Shown: piece by piece, positions 21,227-54,898 of the stretch
Numbering within the stretch: the first letter of the stretch is position 1
How the letters are laid out: every line of letters begins with the position of its first letter
Assembly: GCA_937951485.1 (NCBI GenBank)
Contig: CALEDJ010000014.1
Span: forward strand, 1 to 56,145
Direction of reading: 5' to 3'
DNA length: 56,145 bases
Origin: an uncultured bacterium
GTDB lineage: Bacteria > Hydrogenedentota > Hydrogenedentia > Hydrogenedentales > CAILVY01
Program-made: the position numbers and the translations under genes
The notes under the pieces: generated by a model
Database searches by the model: none
What the model saw: only the letters and a program-made list of their open reading frames with translations
Told to the model about the DNA's origin: nothing

Positions 21227-21974
21227 CACCAAAGAACGCGCGGAGACGCTCCGGGTTTTGGCGGCCCGCTTGGGGATTGCGGTTCAAAACATGACGTTGT
21301 TGGACCGCGCGCTGACACATGCTTCCGTAGTGGCGGAAGCGAGCGGGTCCCTGTTGGACTATGAATCGCTGGAATTTCTTGGGGATGCGGTGCTGGGTCT
21401 GGCGGTGGCGGATTATCTCTTCGCGAAGTATCCCGATCGGACGCCGGGCGAATACAGCCGGATGCGGGCGGGGGTGGTGAGCAGACGCAGCGTGGCGCGT
21501 GTGGCCCATGAATTAGACATTGCGCCGGCCATTCGCCTGGGAAAGGGCGAAGAACATTCCGGAGGCCGGCAACGGACCGCGCTGGTGGCGGATTGCCTGG
21601 AAGCGTTGATCGGTGCGGTTTATCTGGACAGCGGCTGGGAGGCGGCGCGGGACTTTGTGACGCGATCGTTTCGGCGTGAATTGCAGAATGCCTGCGGCGA
21701 GAAGGAAGTCTGGGATTTCAAGTCCTGCCTGCAAAACCATTGCCAGGCGGAGCGCATTGCGCTACCGGTGTTCAAAGTGATCCGGTCCGAGGGACCCGAT
21801 CACTGCAAAGAATTTGAAGTGGAAGTATGGGTTCGGGGCCAGCCGATGGGTCGCGGACGGGGTACGAGCAAAAAGGAAGCGGAGCAGAACGCTGCGCGCG
21901 AGGCTCTGGAGCGCGAAGGGCATCACTTCGGCCAAGGCAACGGCGTGGTGAAAAAGAAAGGAGAAAAGGAGTAA
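21219..21974 (+). CDS. rnc: Ribonuclease III
   Basis: The product is 251 residues; ATG 21219 lies within the last codons of fabF. The RNase III signature is ESLEFLGDAV (about residues 49-58), and the second acidic pair is in DCLEALIGAVYLDSG. A C-terminal double-stranded RNA-binding domain (about 168-236) ends in GTSKKEAEQNAAREAL. It cuts double-stranded RNA in rRNA and mRNA processing. The stop codon is 2 nt before the hppA start. Confidence 0.96.
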   Translation: MNDTKERAETLRVLAARLGIAVQNMTLLDRALTHASVVAEASGSLLDYESLEFLGDAVLGLAVADYLFAKYPDRTPGEYSRMRAGVVSRRSVARVAHELDIAPAIRLGKGEEHSGGRQRTALVADCLEALIGAVYLDSGWEAARDFVTRSFRRELQNACGEKEVWDFKSCLQNHCQAERIALPVFKVIRSEGPDHCKEFEVEVWVRGQPMGRGRGTSKKEAEQNAAREALEREGHHFGQGNGVVKKKGEKE

Positions 21975-21976
21975 TT

Positions 21977-24022
21977 ATGGACCGGTTTTTATGGGCTTCT
22001 GGAATAGCGAGCCTGTGTGCGTTGGTGTTTGTGGCGTATTTGATCAAGTACGTCCTTTCCAAGCCGCAGGGCAATGAAACGATGGCCCGTCTGTCGCGGG
22101 CGGTGCAGGAAGGGGCGCTGGCGTTCCTGTTTCGGGAATACCGCTATGTCTTGAGCACAGCGCTCGTGCTGGCGATTGGCATTGCCGTCCTTGGCGGGCT
22201 GCGCCCGGACCTGCCGCTGGGCTGGAAAACGTCGGTGGCGTTCCTCATTGGAGCGCTGGCCAGCACCATGGCGGGCTTCCTGGGTATGTTCATCGCCACG
22301 CGCGCCAATGCGCGCACGACGGCGGCGGCGCAAAGCGGCGGCGTCAAGGCGGCACTGGATGTGGCCATCAGCGGCGGAGCGGTTATGGGCATGGGCGTGG
22401 TCGGCATTGCGCTGCTCGGACTTGCCATTGTGTATAAGATTTTCCTGGGCGAGTCGCAGATCGTGAACGGCTACGCTATGGGCGCTTCGCTGGTGGCGCT
22501 GTTTGCGCGTTCCGGCGGCGGTATTTATACCAAGGGCGCGGATATGGGCGCGGACCTCGTGGGCAAGGTGGAAGCGGGGATTCCGGAAGACGACCCGCGC
22601 AATCCCGCCGTGATTGCCGATAATGTGGGCGACAACGTGGGTGACGTGGCAGGCCTTGGCGCAGACCTGCTTGAATCCTATGTGGAATCCATCATAGCGA
22701 GCCTGGCGGTGGCGACGATTATCACGCCGACCGTGGCTGGCAGCGGTTATGCACAGGCGTTTCCGTTCTTTACAGCGGCCATCGGTATTTTTGCGTCCAT
22801 TATCGGTGTGATGTACGTGAAAACGTTTGCGCAGAGCAATCCGCAGGGGGCGTTGATGAACGGCACCTACCTCAGCGCTCTGCTCGCCATTGCCGGGGTC
22901 TTCGGATATGCCTGGCTGAAAGGATCTGATTTCGAATTGGATGGGCATGTTTACAGATGGTACGGCCCGGCGATGGCGTGTGTGCTGGGCATCATTTCCG
23001 GCGGGGTGGTCGGGTTTGTAAGCGAATACTTTACTTCCAGTAAATATAAACCCGTGAAGAAACTGGCGGAAAGCGCCCAGTCCGGTCCGGCCATTGCCGT
23101 GACCGAAGGCACTGCGGTCGGCATGCAAAGCACCGCGGGACCGGTCATCGTTCTCGCGATCGCCATCATCGCCGCCTATCATTTCTGCGGCATGTACGGT
23201 GTGGCCATCGCGGCGCTCGGCATGCTGGCAACCACTGGCATGGTCGTTGCCGTGGACGCCTACGGCCCCATTGCCGACAACGCGGGCGGCATTGCGGAAA
23301 TGGCAGGACTTGACCCCTCCGTGCGCAAGATTACGGACAACCTGGATGCGGTGGGCAACACCACGGCGGCCATTGGCAAAGGATTCGCCATCGGCAGCGC
23401 GGCGTTTGCGGCGATCGGCCTGCTGAGCGCGTTCATGTTGTCGGCCAGACTCCAGCCAACAGCCGTTACCTTGCTCGAGCCGAAAATTCTTGCGGGCATT
23501 CTGGTCGGCGGCATGCTGCCGTTTCTGTTTTCCTCGATGCTGTTTCGTGCCGTGGGCACTTGCGCTTATGCCATGATTGAAGAAGTGCGCCGTCAATTCC
23601 GCGAAACGCCGGGCCTGAAAGAGGGCAAGGAAGGCGTGCATCCTGACAGCACCCGATGCGTTGATATCGCGACGCGCGGCGCAATCAAGGGCATGATGCT
23701 GCCCGGTTTCATGGCCATCGGCTTCCCCGTGGTCATCGGGTTTTCCTTGGGCGCGGAAGGCCTGGCCGGCATGCTGGTCGGCGCGATTGTCACGGGCGTC
23801 ATGCTCGGCATTCAGACCGCCAACTCCGGCGGCGCGATGGATAACGCCAAGAAGTACATCGAAGAAGGCCACTTCGGCGGAAAAGGTTCCGAGGCGCACA
23901 AGGCGGCGGTGGTCGGCGACACCGTCGGTGATCCGCTCAAGGACACCGTCGGGCCGTCCATCAATATCCTCATCAAGTTGATGTGCGTTATTTCGCTCGT
24001 GCTCGCGCCGCTGTTCATTTAG
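21977..24022 (+). CDS. hppA: Membrane-bound ion-translocating pyrophosphatase, K+-dependent type
   Basis: Start at ATG 21977, with AAAGGAG 6-7 nt upstream and overlapping the end of rnc. The product is 681 residues with about 16 membrane segments. The PPi/Mg-binding motif runs from GGGIYTKGADMGADLVGK through DDPRNPAVIADNVGDNVGD; the C-terminal motif is VVGDTVGDPLKDTVGP. The site that sets potassium dependence reads GNTTAAIGKG (Ala where K+-independent enzymes have Lys), so a K+-dependent enzyme is expected; many of these pump Na+, but the pumped ion cannot be settled by eye. It converts pyrophosphate energy into an ion gradient. Its place behind rnc is unusual. Confidence 0.95.
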   Translation: MDRFLWASGIASLCALVFVAYLIKYVLSKPQGNETMARLSRAVQEGALAFLFREYRYVLSTALVLAIGIAVLGGLRPDLPLGWKTSVAFLIGALASTMAGFLGMFIATRANARTTAAAQSGGVKAALDVAISGGAVMGMGVVGIALLGLAIVYKIFLGESQIVNGYAMGASLVALFARSGGGIYTKGADMGADLVGKVEAGIPEDDPRNPAVIADNVGDNVGDVAGLGADLLESYVESIIASLAVATIITPTVAGSGYAQAFPFFTAAIGIFASIIGVMYVKTFAQSNPQGALMNGTYLSALLAIAGVFGYAWLKGSDFELDGHVYRWYGPAMACVLGIISGGVVGFVSEYFTSSKYKPVKKLAESAQSGPAIAVTEGTAVGMQSTAGPVIVLAIAIIAAYHFCGMYGVAIAALGMLATTGMVVAVDAYGPIADNAGGIAEMAGLDPSVRKITDNLDAVGNTTAAIGKGFAIGSAAFAAIGLLSAFMLSARLQPTAVTLLEPKILAGILVGGMLPFLFSSMLFRAVGTCAYAMIEEVRRQFRETPGLKEGKEGVHPDSTRCVDIATRGAIKGMMLPGFMAIGFPVVIGFSLGAEGLAGMLVGAIVTGVMLGIQTANSGGAMDNAKKYIEEGHFGGKGSEAHKAAVVGDTVGDPLKDTVGPSINILIKLMCVISLVLAPLFI

Positions 24023-24050
24023 CCGTTGCGCGTTTTCCCCTGTAATATCA

Positions 24051-24084
24051 AGGGCCTCCAGCAACCGCTGGAGGCCCTTTCTTT
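24051..24084 (+). terminator. Intrinsic terminator after hppA
   Basis: A perfect 12-bp stem, AGGGCCTCCAGC (24051-24062) with GCTGGAGGCCCT (24067-24078), AACC loop, then TTCTTT. It ends the acpP-hppA unit. Confidence 0.9.
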
Positions 24085-24170: not shown

Positions 24171-25217
24171 TCACGCGCGGCGGCACGCCGTAATGGACAG
24201 GATCCCCATCAGTGTGAGCCATCCTGCCAGTCCCGCGACGGGGAGTTTGGCGAAGCCGCCGGAGGCATAGGCCAATCCGTCGGCAATCGCGGTAATCTGG
24301 CCGGTGACGGGATTGTAGATGGCCCTGGTATAGGCGTTCACGCCGCTGGGGTCCAGCGTCTCGATGACAGCGCCCGTGTCGGGATCTACGATTTGTATCC
24401 CCCCCGGCAGTGCCCAACCGAAAGCGCCGCTGATGACCAACCGGCCATCCGGCATGACCCCATTCACGCCGCCGCTGAAAAATGCGCCGGGGGCACCGAT
24501 CAGCACGCCGTCCCCCGCCCAATCCAGCGTGCCGCCGGTTTCATAGGCGTTGATCAGGGCGGTGACGGAAAACGCGCGCAACTCAAGAGAGGCCGCGTCC
24601 ATCGCGTAGAGGCGGTCTCGGGCATGGTCCACTGCCAGTGAAGCGGACCAGCCCGGCTTCTGAACTACTGTCTCGCCCTTGGGCGGTGCTGGTTTGTATA
24701 GCACCGGCGCAGGCAACGATTTTTCATCGCGCAGGTCGTGCACCACAATTACGCTGTTCATCCAGTCGCCCGCACCGGCGTCAATCGCCACCAGGTCTTC
24801 GGTAAGAAATACGGCGGCGTAATGCGGGAGCACGGCGACCACAGCGTCCGGCGCAAAATCGCGCGGCGCAGCCGGATCAAATCGGTAAATGCGATCCAGC
24901 CACGGGTCTGCGCCCCAGCCTCCTGCGCCCAGCAGCGCCGTCCGGCCGCTCGGCGACAACGCAAGAAAGGCGGGGTCGCCTTCATAACCCTGTGCTTTCA
25001 GCGAAAAACCATCTACCTGCGCCCATGCCTGCAAATAAACACCGTCCCCGTTCCACAACAGGAGCCGCCCGTCGGGCAGGGCTGCGCCCACCACGCTATA
25101 GCGTTCAGGCGAGGGGAAGTTCTCATAGCGTTGAAATGCGTCGGCGTGCGTGGCGAACATCGTCAGCGCCGCTGCCGCCAGAATCAAAGAAACTCTCGTT
25201 GAAATACCCTGTTTCAT
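24171..25217 (-). CDS. Secreted beta-propeller-like protein with sorting tail, under cobalamin riboswitch
   Basis: Start at ATG 25217 (MKQGISTRVSLILAAAALTM), with GAAAGGGA 6 nt upstream. The product is 348 residues; the signal peptide ends at THADA|FQ. The body consists of repeated blade-like units with Asp/Gly turns, e.g. LPDGRLLLWNGDG, LSPSGRTALLGAGG, AVDHARDRLYAMD, MPDGRLVISG and DPDTGAVIETLDP, the pattern of six- or seven-bladed YVTN-type propellers. The last 24 residues, LPVAGLAGWL then a hydrophobic span and CRRA, look like an exosortase sorting signal and share P-x-A-G-x-x-G with the mosaic protein at 3533. A cobalamin riboswitch lies upstream on the same strand. Inference: a surface-anchored corrinoid-binding protein, analogous to the Bacteroides BtuG propeller. 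A cobalamin-related role in other secreted steps is possible. Confidence 0.82.
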   Translation of the reverse strand: MKQGISTRVSLILAAAALTMFATHADAFQRYENFPSPERYSVVGAALPDGRLLLWNGDGVYLQAWAQVDGFSLKAQGYEGDPAFLALSPSGRTALLGAGGWGADPWLDRIYRFDPAAPRDFAPDAVVAVLPHYAAVFLTEDLVAIDAGAGDWMNSVIVVHDLRDEKSLPAPVLYKPAPPKGETVVQKPGWSASLAVDHARDRLYAMDAASLELRAFSVTALINAYETGGTLDWAGDGVLIGAPGAFFSGGVNGVMPDGRLVISGAFGWALPGGIQIVDPDTGAVIETLDPSGVNAYTRAIYNPVTGQITAIADGLAYASGGFAKLPVAGLAGWLTLMGILSITACRRA

Positions 25218-25361
25218 TGGGATTCCCTTTCGATATTTCCGGAACATGCTCCGGGGTTGAATGGCCAGTCATCGAAGGGGAAAAGCAGGCAGGAAGAGAT
25301 CATTTCAGGAGGGATCATCCTTCCCTGCGGCAACTTTTCCGCGAAATTGCTACAGCGAAAA

Positions 25362-25513
25362 CGGTGTCAGACAGGTTTTCTGGCTTCCGGATCATCCTAC
25401 CGGCCACCCCTTCCCATCCCCTGTGGGACAGTGGGTTCCGCGTGGCCTTCGTCCCCGGTCACAGCAGCGCGACTGCGACGGATTTGCACCGTGCTTCCCT
25501 CGTTCTGAGACCG
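25362..25513 (-). promoter_or_regulatory. Cobalamin (B12) riboswitch
   Basis: Read on the minus strand. The closing stem is CGGTCTCAG (25505-25513) with CTGACACCG (25362-25370), 8 of 9 paired. Inside follow GGTGCAAATCCG (25479-25490), CCCACTG (25429-25435), TGGGAAGG (25409-25416) and the 3' B12 box GCCAGAAAACCTGTC (25370-25384), in the order and spacing of the adenosylcobalamin-type aptamer. About 145 nt separate it from ATG 25217. That stretch holds two hairpins, one (CCGGA/TCCGG) close to the ribosome binding site, so control of translation initiation is plausible. No other gene lies in between. Confidence 0.93.
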
Positions 25514-25708
25514 TCCGGCGAAGCGATGTCGCTCTTTCTCATCCCTCCTTTCCAATGGTTGCGCTTCGCATGCGACAGGGCGAAGTATAGCGCACGGCGA
25601 ACCCGAAAGCAATGTGGCAGACCGAACACGAATGGATTGTGGCTGATCATTGACATTTGCCGGGACGAGATTCAGACTGGTCTTTGACCAGCCTGAAAGG
25701 AATTTGAG

Positions 25709-47143: not shown

Positions 47144-47172
47144 TTGCATTCTCAAGAGCGCATGCTTATGAT
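47144..47172 (+). promoter_or_regulatory. Sigma-70-type promoter of the TPR-exosortase operon
   Basis: TTGCAT (47144-47149), a 17-bp spacer, TATGAT (47167-47172); the leader to ATG 47255 is about 75 nt. Confidence 0.5.
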
Positions 47173-47254
47173 AGTGACAAAGAGGGGTCAGCGGCTTCCA
47201 AGCGCGTGTGTATCATTAAGGGCGTTGCGGGAAGCGCCTCTCAGGGGAAGACCA

Positions 47255-50200
47255 ATGGCGCGTAAATGGCCGTGGATCATTGTGGGGATTGTTTTTCTGC
47301 TTGCCGTCACAGGCGTGGCGGGGATAGGGGGCTACCTGGCGTTGCAGGGGTATCGCGGACAGGGGGCGCTGCAGAATGCGGAAGCGGCCTATGCCGAAGA
47401 GCGCTGGGGCGAAGCCAAGCAGAACTATACGTGGTATCTTGCGCGGCAACCGGGCGACCCGCAGGTGTTGCGCAGATATATTGATTGCTGCCTGCGTCTG
47501 GTGAACAACCGTAGCGCGCAAGTGCGCGACGCGGGCCGCGCCTATCTTCAGTTGGCCCTGGCGAACCGTTCCGACCGAACATTGCTTGACGAAGTCATGG
47601 CTTTCTACAGGAAGTATCGGTTGTGGCGGGAACTGGATTATGCGACCGAGATTTTCCTGCGCGACAAACCGGGCGATCCCGATTTTACATTTCTGCGGGC
47701 ACTAGCCATGGACCGGCTGGGGCGCACAGTGCCGGCCATAGAAGCGTATCAGAGGCTGGTGGGTGCAGGGCAGGCCCGGCCTGAAGTCTATGGGAATCAG
47801 GCATTGCTGCTTCTGGAACAGGGGCTTGGCCAACAGGCCGGCCAACTGCTGGACCAGGCGCTGGCAGACCATCCTGAGGAGGCAGAGATTCGTGTGCAGC
47901 GCGCCCGGTTCTTTCTGGCGCAGAAAGATCTGTCACGGGCTTCGGAGGAAATTGATGCGGCGTTCGCAGCGGGTGTGGAAACGGCGGAAGCCCTTCTGGT
48001 GGCTGCGAATGTGCGCCGTGCCGGGAGGGACTGGCAGGCGGCGCAGGCCCTGGCGGAAAAGGCGGTGGCTGTTGATCCTTCGGCTGCGGAGGGATATCTG
48101 CTGATTGCAAACAGTTACGTGGCCGAACGCCAGACCGACAAGGCCATCGCTTTTCTCTCCGGCATTGACCCCTTTGTCATGGCCGATAACCCGCAGTTGT
48201 ACCTGTTTCTGACAGAGTTGCAAATCAACGCGGGACAACTGGACGAGGCGGACCAGACCATGGAGGCCTATCGGCAGGCGTACCCCAATGAGCCGTATGT
48301 GCTCGAATATCTCGTGGCGCGCCGGTTGCTTCGCGAAGGCCGAACCACGGATGCGATATCCAAACTGGAAGTCGTGGCGCAGCAGATTCCCGACCTGCGC
48401 GCGGCCCGCTATTTCCTCGCGCTGGCGTATCTGGAGACGGGTCAACGGGATCGCGCGAAAAGCACTCTGGAACTGTATTTGAAAAGCGTACCGGAAGATG
48501 AGAACGCGCGGGCGGTCTGGGAGGCGACCTTCTCCAAACGGCCGGTTCAAGAACTGGAGGCGACGGCGCTGAGTCTGCTCGACAGTGAAATGCCCCCCTT
48601 TGGCGCGCTGGTGTCCGCGGCCTATTCACTGGGCCGCGCGGATACGGAGGGCAAGGATTCGGGGGAACAGCGGGCGCTTGCCAAGCGTCTCTATGAACGG
48701 GCCATCGATCAGTCGCCCTCCTCGCCCGAGGCGTACCGGGGATTGGTCTCGATTTATCTTGACCAACAGGACGTGAACAATGCTCGGCGGACGCTGGACC
48801 GCGCGAAAGCGGCCGATGTGGAGGTATCGGACCTGAATTTTCTGGAGGCGGCGCTGGCCATCGCCGAGGACCAGATGGATAAGGCCCGGCGTTTTTTTGA
48901 TGCGGAGCGCGCGACCGGCGCCATGACGCCGCAGCGCGCCCTCCGGTGGGCGGAACTGTTCTCGGAACGCGGCAGCCTGGAGGCGGGCCTGGACCTTCTG
49001 AACACGCTGATCGCCGGGGAAACAGACGAAGACAATGCGCAGCAACTCGCGCTTGGTCGGGTGACGCTATGCATGCGGGCCGGCGAACTGGAACGCAGCC
49101 TCGCGCTGGTCCGGGAGATAGGCGATCGCTATGCGAACACGCCCGCCATGTTGCGGCGCTTGAATGACCAGCGCATGCTTCTGGTGCAGGCATTATTCGC
49201 GGAGAATGAGGATCTGGCGGAGGGATTGCTTGAAGAGGTGGAGCGGACGGAACCGGATCGTACGGACACGAAAATATTTCGGGCGCACATGCTTCTGGCT
49301 ATGGACCCGCCCAACCTCGATGCCGCCGACCGGCTGTGCGCGGCGGCGCGTCGCGCGGGCGCGTCCGATGCGGAACTGTTTCTGCTTTCCGGCGACATTG
49401 CGGCGCGAAAAGGGCAGACGGCGGCCGCGCTGGACTATGCGCTGCAAGCGAGCGCGGCGGCACCCAATGACGTGACCATGTTGATGGCGCTGGCATGGGC
49501 GCAAGTGCAGGCGGAACACTTTACCGACGCGGTCGGCACCCTGGAAAGGGTGCGGTCCATGCAACCTGAAAACAATGCCGCCCTGGAGTTGCTGGGCCGC
49601 GCCTATGCGGGCGCGGGACGTTACCGCGAGGCGGAAGAGGTGGCGCGGCAGTTGGAAAAGGCGGTCGGGCAATGGGCGGCCGCGCCGCTGCGCGCCTGGG
49701 TGTTGATTTCCAGGGGGGAATGGTCCTCTGCGGAATGGATTCTGCGCCAGTTGCATGAAGCCAATCCGGATGACCTGTGGACCATTCATTTTCTGACGCG
49801 GGCCATGGTCGCGCAGGACCAGATGGCCGACGCCGTGCGGCTTATTGACGAATGCATCAAGCGGCGGCCCGAATCGCCGGAACTTTGGAGCGAACTCGGC
49901 CATTTGCGATTGGCGGCGGGCGATGCGGCGTCGTTGTCGCAGGCGTCATCTGCATTTACCCAGGCCCTTATCCACCAGAAGGGCTTCCTTCCGGCCCTGC
50001 GCGGCCTGCTGGAGTTGCAGGTGCGGTTGGGGAATCTGGGCGGCGCGTTGGGTTTGTGCAACCGTTTTCTTTCGGAGAATCCGGACGACCCCGATATGCT
50101 CGAACGAAAAGCGGCACTGCTGGCCCAGGTCCCGAGCACCCAATATGAGGCACTTGACGCCATCCAACGCGCGATTGAAATCAGCGCGCGTCCGGAATTT

Positions 50201-50464
50201 TTTTACCTGCGCGGATATTTACGAGTGAATCTCGGGGATTTCCCCAATGCGATAGAAGATTTTCAACGGGTGATGCAGGCCGGTGGGGGCGCGTCGGCCA
50301 ATTTGGATGTTTTACTTGCCGAGGCGCATCTCGGCCTGAACAACACGGATCTCGCACGGTTCTATTATGATGCCGCCGTGGCAAAACGTTCAAGGGGGGA
50401 ACCGCTGGATTCGGCCCGATTGGACAGGCTGACGGTTCGTTTCGCGGAGGCAGCGATCCGGTGA
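47255..50464 (+). CDS. Very long membrane-anchored TPR protein of the exosortase operon
   Basis: Start at ATG 47255 (MARKWPWIIVGIVFLLAVTG), with AGGGGAAG upstream; the longer in-frame ATG at 47144 falls in the putative promoter. The product is 1069 residues: one N-terminal membrane segment (about 5-27), then more than twenty TPR-type helix pairs to the C-terminus, predicted to lie in the periplasm (e.g. ALLLEQGLGQQAGQLLDQAL, ALELLGRAYAGAGRYREAEE). In PEP-CTERM/exosortase loci long TPR proteins of the PrsT kind accompany exopolysaccharide export and assembly. Its stop overlaps the exosortase GTG start. Confidence 0.9.
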   Translation: MARKWPWIIVGIVFLLAVTGVAGIGGYLALQGYRGQGALQNAEAAYAEERWGEAKQNYTWYLARQPGDPQVLRRYIDCCLRLVNNRSAQVRDAGRAYLQLALANRSDRTLLDEVMAFYRKYRLWRELDYATEIFLRDKPGDPDFTFLRALAMDRLGRTVPAIEAYQRLVGAGQARPEVYGNQALLLLEQGLGQQAGQLLDQALADHPEEAEIRVQRARFFLAQKDLSRASEEIDAAFAAGVETAEALLVAANVRRAGRDWQAAQALAEKAVAVDPSAAEGYLLIANSYVAERQTDKAIAFLSGIDPFVMADNPQLYLFLTELQINAGQLDEADQTMEAYRQAYPNEPYVLEYLVARRLLREGRTTDAISKLEVVAQQIPDLRAARYFLALAYLETGQRDRAKSTLELYLKSVPEDENARAVWEATFSKRPVQELEATALSLLDSEMPPFGALVSAAYSLGRADTEGKDSGEQRALAKRLYERAIDQSPSSPEAYRGLVSIYLDQQDVNNARRTLDRAKAADVEVSDLNFLEAALAIAEDQMDKARRFFDAERATGAMTPQRALRWAELFSERGSLEAGLDLLNTLIAGETDEDNAQQLALGRVTLCMRAGELERSLALVREIGDRYANTPAMLRRLNDQRMLLVQALFAENEDLAEGLLEEVERTEPDRTDTKIFRAHMLLAMDPPNLDAADRLCAAARRAGASDAELFLLSGDIAARKGQTAAALDYALQASAAAPNDVTMLMALAWAQVQAEHFTDAVGTLERVRSMQPENNAALELLGRAYAGAGRYREAEEVARQLEKAVGQWAAAPLRAWVLISRGEWSSAEWILRQLHEANPDDLWTIHFLTRAMVAQDQMADAVRLIDECIKRRPESPELWSELGHLRLAAGDAASLSQASSAFTQALIHQKGFLPALRGLLELQVRLGNLGGALGLCNRFLSENPDDPDMLERKAALLAQVPSTQYEALDAIQRAIEISARPEFFYLRGYLRVNLGDFPNAIEDFQRVMQAGGGASANLDVLLAEAHLGLNNTDLARFYYDAAVAKRSRGEPLDSARLDRLTVRFAEAAIR

Positions 50465-51369
50465 CAGAAACGCCCATACCGCCGATTGCGGGGCCTGCGC
50501 TTAAAACGCAGTTCATCAACTGGAAAGCCGTCGCATTCTGGGTCGCGGCGGCGGTGCTGTGCTGTCTGATTTTTCTGGAAGCCGCCCGCGATCTCTATGA
50601 ATTCGCCACCAGAAGCGATTCGTATTACTCGCACGCGTTGCTGGTGCCATTTGTCAGCGCATACTTCGTATGGCGGGACCGGGCTGTTCTGTCGCAGATG
50701 GCAACAAGTCCCTCAAAAGTGGGGTATCCCCTTATTTTTGCCGCGTGCGTTATTGTGGTGGTGGGGGACCTGCTGGGATTGCGCATCTTCGGGCAAGTCG
50801 CGGTCCTTCCATTGCTGGTCGGGCTGATCCTGGTGTTTCTGGGCCCCAGGCATCTGCTCCGCATGTGGTTCCCCCTTGTCTTTCTGCTGTTCATGATCCC
50901 GTTGCCGATGTCTCTGACCACGGCCATGACGTTCCGAACGAAGATGCTGGCGACGGAGGGGGCGGTGCGCTTATCGCAAGCGTTCTTCCTGCCGATGGTT
51001 CGCGACGGATCGTATATTCATTTTGCCGGCGACCGCCTGCTGGTCGGGGATGTGTGCTCGGGACTGCGCTCCCTGATTGCGCTTCTGGCGCTGGGCGCGG
51101 TGATGAGTTATATCAGTCGGACGAAGACATGGGCGCGCCTGTTGATTTTTGTGGTGGCCGGCCCTGTCGCCGTGGCGTCGAATGTGTTTCGCATCTTCCT
51201 GCTGTGCGTGGTCGCCCATTACTGGGGCAGTGAAGTGGCCAGCGGCTGGGTGCATGATGTCTCGGGTGTCATGATTTACATTGTGGCGCTTGCACTGATG
51301 ATCGCGCTGGAAGGGCTGATGCGGCAAATCGCGCCGGCCTCGGAACCTGAGAAAGAAGGGACAACCTGA
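50461..51369 (+). CDS. Exosortase
   Basis: The product is 302 residues from GTG 50461, overlapping the TPR stop (GTGA). About eight membrane segments. Catalytic triad: Cys199 in VGDVCSGLRSL, Arg244 in SNVFRIFLL and His265 in GWVHDVSGV, in the order and membrane setting of exosortases. It cleaves and transfers proteins that carry a C-terminal sorting tail to a surface acceptor. Two candidate substrates are in the window (3533-8884 and 24171-25217). The subtype (XrtA or other) cannot be named by eye. Followed by EpsI with a 1-nt overlap. Confidence 0.95.
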   Translation: MTETPIPPIAGPALKTQFINWKAVAFWVAAAVLCCLIFLEAARDLYEFATRSDSYYSHALLVPFVSAYFVWRDRAVLSQMATSPSKVGYPLIFAACVIVVVGDLLGLRIFGQVAVLPLLVGLILVFLGPRHLLRMWFPLVFLLFMIPLPMSLTTAMTFRTKMLATEGAVRLSQAFFLPMVRDGSYIHFAGDRLLVGDVCSGLRSLIALLALGAVMSYISRTKTWARLLIFVVAGPVAVASNVFRIFLLCVVAHYWGSEVASGWVHDVSGVMIYIVALALMIALEGLMRQIAPASEPEKEGTT

Positions 51370-52006: not shown

Positions 52007-54898
52007 ATGATGATTGCATGCGGTCGCGGCAGGGCGCGACACATTGTGTGTGGGGTCACCATCGCGACACTGGCGGGGCTGCTCTTCGCCGGCTGCGGCG
52101 AGCGGCGGAGCGACCAGTACCTGCAACAGGGCGCCACCTATCTCCGCCTGCAGAAGTACGGGGAAGCCGAGGAAACCTACCGCTGGGCGTTGCAGGCGAA
52201 TCCCCACAGCGTTCAGGCCAGACTGGGATTGGGCCAATGCCTGATCGCACTCGGCAAGACCGACGAAGCACTGGGGTGTTTTCAGGAGATCATTGCCATA
52301 GCGCCGGAAGATGACCGGGGTTACCTGGAAACGGCCCGCCTGCTCCTGAGGATGGGCAAGACGGATGAGGCGCTTGCCACGGCGCAGCGACTGGAGGCGG
52401 TCAACGCCGAACTGGGCGGCGTGTTGCACACGAGTCTCTTACTGAATTTGGGACGGCATGCGGAGGCGCGTGACCTCTTGGCCGGGCTTCAGGAACGGTT
52501 CCCGGATTCTGTGACCGTACGCACGCATTCGGCTGCGGTGCTGTTGGCCACGGGACAGGCCGCCGAGGCCGAAGCGGCATTGAAAGCCGTAATTCAACAG
52601 GACCCGGCGGGGGCAACCGGCGCAAAGGTGTTGCTGGTTGAGGCCTTGGCCGCCCAAGGCAGGGTCGCCGAGATGCTTGCGCAGCAGGAAATGGTGTCCG
52701 CGGAGGATTCCGACCAGGCGATGGTGACGGCGCATGCGCTGATCCTTGCCGACCGCGCGGAGGAAGGGGCGGCGCTGCTGCGCGGCGTGTTGGAGCAGAA
52801 TCCCAGGGCGCCTTGGGCGTGTTTTGTGTTGGGGGCGCATCTGATGGCCATGGGCCGGCGCGAGGAAGCCGGGCCGTTCCTGCAGGTGGCCGCCGAATCC
52901 CTGCCCTGGGAGGCCGCAGTCATGCATGGCCCGGCAAGGGAGCACCGTTCAGAACCGGCCGCACCGGTCCTTGCGCCGCCGGATGCACAGCGGGCGCCGG
53001 CCGACCGGATCATTTCCGATGCGGCGGCCCTGGAAGATTGGCAACGACTGTGGCGTCAGGGCGCGTTGCGCCGCCTCGTGGATGAACGGGAACGTTTCCG
53101 GGGTCAGCCGGGCGCACATTTGCAGGAAACGTTGTCACTTGCGGCGTTGTTCCTGGGGAACTTCGCCCTGGCCGAGGCATTGGCCGGGGAACTTCCCGCC
53201 GATTCGCCGTTGATTGCCTATCTGGAAGCGTTGAAACAACAGACGCCGCGGGAAGCGGTGAATGCGCTGGAACCCTGGATGCAACAAGAAGACGCCGCGC
53301 TGGGCGTGCTGGCGTTGAATGCCGCCGGATATGCCATGGCCATCACGGGCGCGCGCGGGCAGGCGGTCCAGGTGCTCTCGGAGTGCGTGGAACGCTTTCC
53401 GGACAATGGCGTGAGCCTGATCAATCTTGCGCAGGTCTTTCGGGCGGCCAACATGCCCCAGTTCGCCGCCCGCGCCCTGTCGCGCCTGACCTCGGTTTCC
53501 CCCGAAAACATCGAAGCCCACGCCCTGCTCTTCCGCGTGTTGCGCGAGGCGGGCATGCACCAGGCGGCGCGCCAGGCCGCCGAAGTCATGTATGCCCTGT
53601 TTCCGGACAGCCGTGAGGCGAGTCTGGCCGTGTGTGGCATCTATATGGATGGCAAGGACCCGGACCTGGCGATGCGCGTGGCGGATCGGTATCTGCAATC
53701 GCACCCCCAGGACGGCGAAATGCTGATGACAAAGGCGTCGGTGTTGTTGCGTAAAGGCCGAATCGAGGATGCGCTCGAGGTGCTTGGAAACATCCCCCCC
53801 TCCGATGTCCTGGCCCCGGGGATCGCCTCGATGACCGCGCTGAGCCGCGCACTCCTGCACGATTGGCAGGGGGTCATTGACGTTATAAACCCCGTCGGTC
53901 AGACGCCCATCCCCCTGACCCAGCATTTCATTCTTGCCGCCGCCCATATCAAGCGCGGGGAGAAAGACCAGGCGGCAACCGTTATGACCCAGGCGGACAG
54001 TGATGAGCCCCTGGGCGGGCTTGCGGGCAGGATCATTCTGCATGCGCTCGGGCGTCCCATGGAAGCCCTCGCGGCCGGGGATCGCGCCCTGGCCGAGGCG
54101 CTTGCCGGCAACGACGCCGCGATCGCGGACTTCGCGGCGGGCGCCGCCTGTCAGGTGGCGCTGATGCACGATGACGCCTACGTCGCGTTCAAGCGGGTTG
54201 ACGACGCCCTCGCGGGAGACCATGACACGCTCGTGGGTTTCATGTTTTCAAGCCTCCCGCATCTCGCCCGTGTCGAAGACATCGCGGCGGAAGGGCGCGC
54301 CCTGGCCGAACGCCACGCATCCCGCCCACGGGCGTGGCTGGGCTATGCCGGCCTGTTGCAAAAAATCGAAGACGCGGCCGGCGAGCGCGCCGCGCTCGAC
54401 AAGGCCGCCGAAGTCGGGCCGGACGATCCGCAGGTCTTCCTGCGGCGCGGCGATTTCTTCTCCCGCATCAAGGACCCGCAAGCGGCTGCCGTCGAGTATC
54501 GGCGGCTGCTGCAATTGCGCCCGAATGACCCGGTGGGAAACAACAACCTTGCGTATCATCTTATCCTGACGGAAGAAGACAACGACGAGGCACTGCGATG
54601 CGCGCGCCTGGCTGCACAGAGCCTTCCCATGAATCCGCATGTGCTGCATACCCTGGGAGTGGCGCTGCTGCGCAACGGCGACCTGGAGGAGAGTCGGAAA
54701 AATCTGATGACCGCGCTGCAACTCATGCCGGGCGACCCCTCGTTGCTGCTCGATTACGGCGAATTGCTCATCACGCTCGGCGACATTGAAGGCGGCCGCA
54801 GGCACATCGAAAGCGCCCTCGCCAACACCCGCGCCCTGGACCTCGATTTCGACCGTCAGGCCGAAGCCGAAGCCCTGCTCGCGAAACAGCACAAATAG
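52007..54898 (+). CDS. Long TPR lipoprotein (PrsT-like)
   Basis: The product is 963 residues; AGGAGG lies 7 nt before ATG 52007. The lipoprotein signal ends in LLFAGC, so the mature protein starts at a lipidated Cys. TPR helix pairs run through the whole length (e.g. LQQGATYLRLQKYGEAEETY, NNLAYHLILTEEDNDEALRC), with a less regular stretch at about residues 300-345. It resembles the TPR lipoprotein PrsT of PEP-CTERM/exosortase loci in size, export signal and position. Fourth gene of the operon, 11 bp after epsI. Confidence 0.9.
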   Translation: MMIACGRGRARHIVCGVTIATLAGLLFAGCGERRSDQYLQQGATYLRLQKYGEAEETYRWALQANPHSVQARLGLGQCLIALGKTDEALGCFQEIIAIAPEDDRGYLETARLLLRMGKTDEALATAQRLEAVNAELGGVLHTSLLLNLGRHAEARDLLAGLQERFPDSVTVRTHSAAVLLATGQAAEAEAALKAVIQQDPAGATGAKVLLVEALAAQGRVAEMLAQQEMVSAEDSDQAMVTAHALILADRAEEGAALLRGVLEQNPRAPWACFVLGAHLMAMGRREEAGPFLQVAAESLPWEAAVMHGPAREHRSEPAAPVLAPPDAQRAPADRIISDAAALEDWQRLWRQGALRRLVDERERFRGQPGAHLQETLSLAALFLGNFALAEALAGELPADSPLIAYLEALKQQTPREAVNALEPWMQQEDAALGVLALNAAGYAMAITGARGQAVQVLSECVERFPDNGVSLINLAQVFRAANMPQFAARALSRLTSVSPENIEAHALLFRVLREAGMHQAARQAAEVMYALFPDSREASLAVCGIYMDGKDPDLAMRVADRYLQSHPQDGEMLMTKASVLLRKGRIEDALEVLGNIPPSDVLAPGIASMTALSRALLHDWQGVIDVINPVGQTPIPLTQHFILAAAHIKRGEKDQAATVMTQADSDEPLGGLAGRIILHALGRPMEALAAGDRALAEALAGNDAAIADFAAGAACQVALMHDDAYVAFKRVDDALAGDHDTLVGFMFSSLPHLARVEDIAAEGRALAERHASRPRAWLGYAGLLQKIEDAAGERAALDKAAEVGPDDPQVFLRRGDFFSRIKDPQAAAVEYRRLLQLRPNDPVGNNNLAYHLILTEEDNDEALRCARLAAQSLPMNPHVLHTLGVALLRNGDLEESRKNLMTALQLMPGDPSLLLDYGELLITLGDIEGGRRHIESALANTRALDLDFDRQAEAEALLAKQHK

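Follow-up and report, generated by a model that had tools for sequence, protein, structure and literature searches.

A cobalamin riboswitch-led secreted beta-propeller is a probable surface B12-capture protein of Candidatus Hydrogenedentota

We have identified a full-length cobalamin riboswitch that leads into a single gene for a secreted, predicted six-bladed beta-propeller protein in a 56,145-nucleotide stretch of DNA (hereafter, the window) from an uncultured member of the Hydrogenedentota. The linkage between riboswitch and propeller recurs across the order, and the same regulon includes homologs of the B12-binding protein BtuH. We think it probable that the propeller captures cobamides while anchored at the cell surface and that its synthesis is repressed by B12; it would then resemble BtuG in its job without being BtuG. 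The regulon as a whole is probably part of a B12-capture route that has not been described. These results name concrete, testable genes for BtuB-independent B12 acquisition in an order most of whose genomes have B12 riboswitches and transport of the BtuFCD type but lack a TonB plug protein. They also suggest a likely function for two new propeller families and extend BtuH-type proteins past the gut Bacteroidetes.

Ordinary porins do not admit a molecule as large as vitamin B12, and to our knowledge the described outer-membrane route for it in diderms is BtuB together with TonB. In Bacteroides thetaiotaomicron, the seven-bladed propeller lipoprotein BtuG2 forms a lid on the TonB-dependent BtuB (PMC10404256). 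BtuH also binds B12, and the single protein BT_1490 (BtuG1/BtuGH) contains both a propeller and the BtuH region (PMC8941943). Proteins with DUF4465 (BtuJ) are secreted, riboswitch-controlled B12 binders of several phyla (PMC13398666, PMC12751083); these are jelly-rolls, whereas the window protein is a predicted propeller, and no DUF4465 match was found in the regulon proteins scanned.

A sequence-only reading of the window had proposed a B12 aptamer on the minus strand with a secreted protein as its one target, and both proposals were borne out (Table 1). Rfam cmscan placed RF00174 there with 85.8 bits (gathering score 31.5; E 8.5e-20), covering model positions 1-189 of 189, and this was the window's sole Rfam match at gathering thresholds. 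The source genome (4.55 Mb, 94% complete) has just two cobalamin riboswitches, the window copy and one elsewhere. The open reading frame behind the window copy has 348 codons and starts MKQGIS, 135 nt from the aptamer; an alternative in-frame ATG lies 30 nt further upstream and would give 358 codons. The gene is solitary, its downstream neighbor being a convergent hppA-like (pyrophosphatase-like) gene on the other strand (21827-24022). Between the two lies a GC-rich perfect hairpin with nine GC pairs in its 13-bp stem, a candidate terminator of the convergent pair. On the minus strand, a terminator scan of the leader gave no hairpin with a T-run, and the stability of the leader's fold was no greater than that of shuffled sequences. 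Judging from the riboswitch class, the gene would be shut off when B12 is plentiful, and the propeller would therefore be made under cobamide scarcity.

Table 1. Positions of the features discussed, numbered from the first letter of the window
Feature	Position	Strand	Basis
Cobalamin riboswitch aptamer (RF00174)	25353..25523	-	Rfam cmscan, full length
Leader, aptamer to start codon (expression platform region)	25218..25352	-	Sequence
Secreted six-bladed beta-propeller protein (predicted fold), 348 aa	24171..25217	-	ORF list, AlphaFold2, VIA-align, homologues in phylum
C-terminal tail coding region AKLPVAGLAGWLTLMGILSITACRRA plus stop, proposed sorting/anchoring signal	24171..24251	-	Architecture only
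Strong hairpin, candidate terminator	24050..24079		13-bp stem
Exosortase, candidate tail-processing enzyme	50461..51369	+	PF09721, TIGR02602

The encoded protein comprises a signal peptide (approximately residues 1-28), a propeller (approximately 25-321) and a tail of motif, transmembrane segment and basic end (approximately 322-348). The propeller fold, which the sequence-only reading had suggested, was upheld by an AlphaFold2 model built with 28 homologues as input (mean pLDDT 86, pTM 0.82). The best VIA-align matches of the model were six-bladed propellers, among them Pizza6 (Z 22.3, 241/250 residues, rmsd 2.6), NHL domains, strictosidine synthase and lactonase; because the superposition on Pizza6 extends across the whole propeller, six blades are favored. 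Propellers are a very common fold, and the fold by itself tells little about the ligand; the VIA-align and Foldseek lists hold hundreds of propellers with unrelated functions. BtuG chains were absent among the VIA-align and Foldseek matches listed. Searches of Pfam (including the DUF5074/YncE-type families of BtuG) and of NCBIfam with the window protein gave no match up to E 10, a sequence search of the PDB showed no similarity to any chain, and the propeller profile A1 found no BtuG chain in the PDB at E <= 1. The window protein is thus a predicted propeller, but these searches do not recognize it as a homologue of BtuG. The earlier comparison with BtuG held for the general fold and failed for sequence; the best structural matches are six-bladed, as against the seven blades of BtuG2. 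The enzymes among the structural neighbors, a six-bladed lactonase and strictosidine-synthase-like proteins, raise the alternative of an enzymatic role at the surface, such as that of a hydrolase resembling lactonases, with the propeller deployed at B12 shortage for the release or remodelling of cobamides, or for bypass of a B12-dependent step. We regard this as improbable, since no enzyme family was matched in Pfam or NCBIfam and the remaining members of the regulon are binding and transport proteins rather than isozymes.

No lipobox was found, and the signal peptide region MKQGISTRVSLILAAAALTMFATHADA is without cysteine. At the other end of the protein, the tail AKLPVAGLAGWLTLMGILSITACRRA consists of a motif, a hydrophobic stretch and arginine; written in full it is LPVAGLAGWLTLMGILSITACRRA, with LPVAG, the hydrophobic stretch and RR as its elements and a helix at residues 331-347 of the AlphaFold2 model. 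Many homologues, and also the BtuH-type partners described below, have similar tails of the form P-x-x-G, transmembrane segment and Arg/Lys, while some propeller homologues carry other extensions instead. In this architecture, a short motif with a transmembrane helix and a basic end in a genome that has an exosortase, the protein is like PEP-CTERM, IPTL-CTERM and VPLPA-CTERM substrates. It differs from them in that none of the curated CTERM sorting models of NCBIfam matches the window tail at E <= 10, so the label of an exosortase tail derives from architecture alone; similarity to IPTL-CTERM was weak and confined to two homologues. The exosortase itself lies within the same window, with TIGR02602 at 176.6 bits (cut-off 105.55) and PF09721 at E 6.6e-59, the strong exosortase match of the genome. 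The suggestion of an exosortase-type tail in the sequence-only reading therefore stood as regards the arrangement of motif, transmembrane segment and arginine and the presence of the enzyme, and found no counterpart among the curated models. Exosortase-mediated anchoring of the propeller is plausible. A large TPR protein adjoins the exosortase gene on its upstream side (window 47144-51369 for the two).

A contig search with the single window protein returned one relative only, and its contig is identical to one in G002, which together with one other genome is assigned to the window's own family; a single-sequence search across the genomes of relatives found homologues in many. A profile search of 68 Hydrogenedentota genomes placed the propeller family in 31, two of these by weak matches only, with 31 strong loci in the other 29 genomes. 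So far the family has been found only in Candidatus Hydrogenedentota. At each of the 31 strong loci, Rfam scans located RF00174 directly upstream of the propeller gene and in its orientation, usually 20-240 nt before the start. No riboswitch was found at the two weak, divergent homologues (G044:C114 and G050:C346, the latter a fragment near a contig end). Since the genes flanking the propeller vary between families while the riboswitch is kept, the linkage is more than synteny. The genomes all come from one order, which could suggest an association by accident of location or by the shared ancestry of close relatives; with every strong locus riboswitch-led, many families, varied flanks and only one to three cobalamin riboswitches in each surveyed genome that has them, we give this explanation almost no weight. 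Chance placement of the riboswitch is refuted by the census that follows.

The census covered 92 cobalamin riboswitches from 60 genomes, of which 88, from 54 genomes, had enough downstream sequence to be read. All 88 lead into one or more of five kinds of target: the propeller at 26 loci, a second propeller (p2) at 14, a BtuH-type domain at 37, a pilin at 39 (three of them of a weaker type) and BtuFCD at five; the categories overlap because operons hold several members. Among the five BtuFCD loci, a CobU-like gene follows in one and a CobT-like gene in one. The secreted p2 is predicted to be a six-bladed propeller (Z about 24), has no detectable sequence similarity to the first propeller family, carries an Ig-like domain and is confined to one family of the order (L142, L103, L117 and others). 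The two propeller families never share a genome (25 versus 14 genomes), a pattern that replacement of one by the other would produce. The link to B12 that the sequence-only reading had asked homologues to display is thus conserved, both in the riboswitch at every strong propeller locus and in regulon partners, a BtuH-type domain and, in five relatives, BtuFCD.

The second cobalamin riboswitch of the source genome (G000:C15:81731-81970) precedes a 1085-aa open reading frame (G000:C15:78319-81576; L034:6320-9577, minus strand) that holds, in one reading frame, a BtuH-type domain, Ig-like parts, a transmembrane and basic stretch and a full pilin. With phmmer, the BtuH-type domain matched 7biz_A (E 1.1e-5) and 8blw_B (E 3e-5); a 28-sequence profile searched against the PDB raised these to E 4.9e-15 and E 1.4e-18, respectively. 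In several relatives a single riboswitch-led operon holds the propeller gene and, immediately after it, the BtuH-type gene. This recalls the BtuH/BtuGH proteins of Bacteroides (BT_1956, BT_1490), of which BtuGH has propeller and BtuH domain fused; both are lipoproteins encoded in btuB operons, whereas the Hydrogenedentota domain precedes Ig-like parts and a transmembrane tail, often with a fused or adjacent pilin. BtuH2 contacts B12 through Gln333, Asn399, Phe401, His476, Tyr510, Trp511, Trp577 and Leu578. As counted in printed alignments, Asn399 and Phe401 fall on a NAF motif that is invariant, as is the WGY whose tyrosine corresponds to Tyr510, while no evident counterparts of Trp511, Trp577 and His476 were seen in the BtuH-type partners. 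Because the contact residues are only partly kept, binding of B12 by the partner is likely, though not certain, on sequence grounds. The BtuH-type protein also weakly matches the model of the Leptospira lipoprotein LIC_13355 (NF033170, E 4e-6), possibly another member of this B12-binding superfamily.

The sole sequence homology to a proven B12 binder resides in the BtuH-type domain, and many propeller homologues bear extra Ig-like or repeat domains. The propeller might accordingly be a non-binding scaffold or docking partner for the BtuH-type protein or the pilin, with the BtuH-type domain alone binding the vitamin. We hold this to be unlikely, albeit a serious alternative. Against it, several genomes have the propeller behind a riboswitch and no BtuH domain found behind one (G026 and G054, where contig ends limit the view), and the mutual replacement of two propeller families suggests that the propeller has a direct task.

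No TonB plug domain was found in the source genome, nor in 45 of the 60 genomes surveyed, by a search that detected the domain in E. coli, Caulobacter and Bacteroides, and no plug protein occurred among the classified riboswitch-led genes. FecCD permeases of the BtuC type are present in 58 of the 60 genomes. The source genome has a BtuFCD-like set (at C7), eight matches to B12-binding domains, and secretins. The BtuFCD-like set and the B12-binding domains indicate use of B12 by the organism and a route for it through the inner membrane, with no recognized outer-membrane receptor. A role for the propeller as a lid on BtuB was rejected, as the genome has no TonB plug protein. Taken as a whole, the B12-capture reading put forward from the sequence is partly supported, by the conserved B12 link, the predicted propeller fold and the presence of an exosortase; its comparison with BtuG does not extend to sequence homology or to a lid on BtuB. 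The second riboswitch with its BtuH-type domain and pilin, and the regulon shared across the order, go beyond that reading and are the most unusual features.

Under the capture role that we prefer for the propeller, scarcity of B12 would lead the riboswitch to permit its synthesis, and plentiful B12 would turn it off. The signal peptide would export the protein and the C-terminal tail would hold it at the surface, the tail probably being cleaved by the exosortase, whose gene lies at a distance of 25 kb. There the propeller could capture cobamides and pass them on, as BtuG does in Bacteroides. It would work with the BtuH-type domain protein and a dedicated pilin, both of which the second riboswitch precedes, and with an inner-membrane BtuFCD. 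The resemblance to BtuG lies in an extracytoplasmic beta-propeller under a cobalamin riboswitch, in a regulon with BtuH-type proteins and BtuFCD; the differences are six blades by best matches, the missing lipobox, the C-terminal tail and a genome free of TonB plug proteins.

The pilin under control of a B12 riboswitch is the most surprising member of the regulon. It shares a prepilin N-terminus and the H-X9-DG motif with H-X9-DG/DUF1559-type pilins, and differs from them in forming a distinct, single-copy subfamily behind a B12 riboswitch: in the source genome the regulon pilin scores 456 bits over the full profile, and the next protein scores 86 bits over the N-terminal part. It often adjoins the BtuH-type protein or is fused with it. 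In the source genome, the fusion runs past the transmembrane segment and basic stretch into the prepilin motif G-FTLIELL, and fused frames recur in G001, G011, G012, G021, G032 and G063. From the position of this motif we infer that prepilin peptidase could split the BtuH-type protein from the pilin. Six genomes (G006, G029, G014, G044, G033 and G019) have a riboswitch-led transcript with the pilin alone (loci L135, L129, L146, L143, L108 and L116), and in G006 and G029 this is the only cobalamin riboswitch of the genome.

These features allow a more specific proposal, which we offer as a speculative and rather unlikely one: that Hydrogenedentota bring B12 across the outer membrane without TonB. 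Surface propellers and BtuH-type domains would catch the vitamin, and the riboswitch-controlled type IV pilin-like protein would help to carry it inward through a secretin-type channel to BtuFCD; where this pilin is translated jointly with the BtuH-type protein, prepilin peptidase could part the two. The pilin may instead act only as a pseudopilin adaptor that helps to export or assemble the BtuH-type protein and the propeller, with no role in uptake, B12 crossing the outer membrane by an unrecognized porin-like route. This alternative is quite possible, falling a little short of even. Approximately 56 loci of the source genome match the pilin profile, about 55 besides the regulon pilin, so the organism may well employ dedicated pilins as a rule, and the frequent adjacency to or fusion with the BtuH-type protein would suit a helper. 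The pilin-only transcripts speak against it, since there the pilin is B12-controlled with none of its supposed cargo behind a riboswitch.

Titles and abstracts of the open-licence literature gave no description of a cobalamin riboswitch with a PEP-CTERM, exosortase, pilin or pseudopilin system, nor of such a system for Hydrogenedentota with cobalamin; as far as that literature was searched, a B12-regulated pilin is raised here for the first time. At one further locus (L124; G048:C11:52302-52472 and 52649-52814, minus strand), two cobalamin riboswitches stand in tandem before a single, longer pilin-like gene of a different type.
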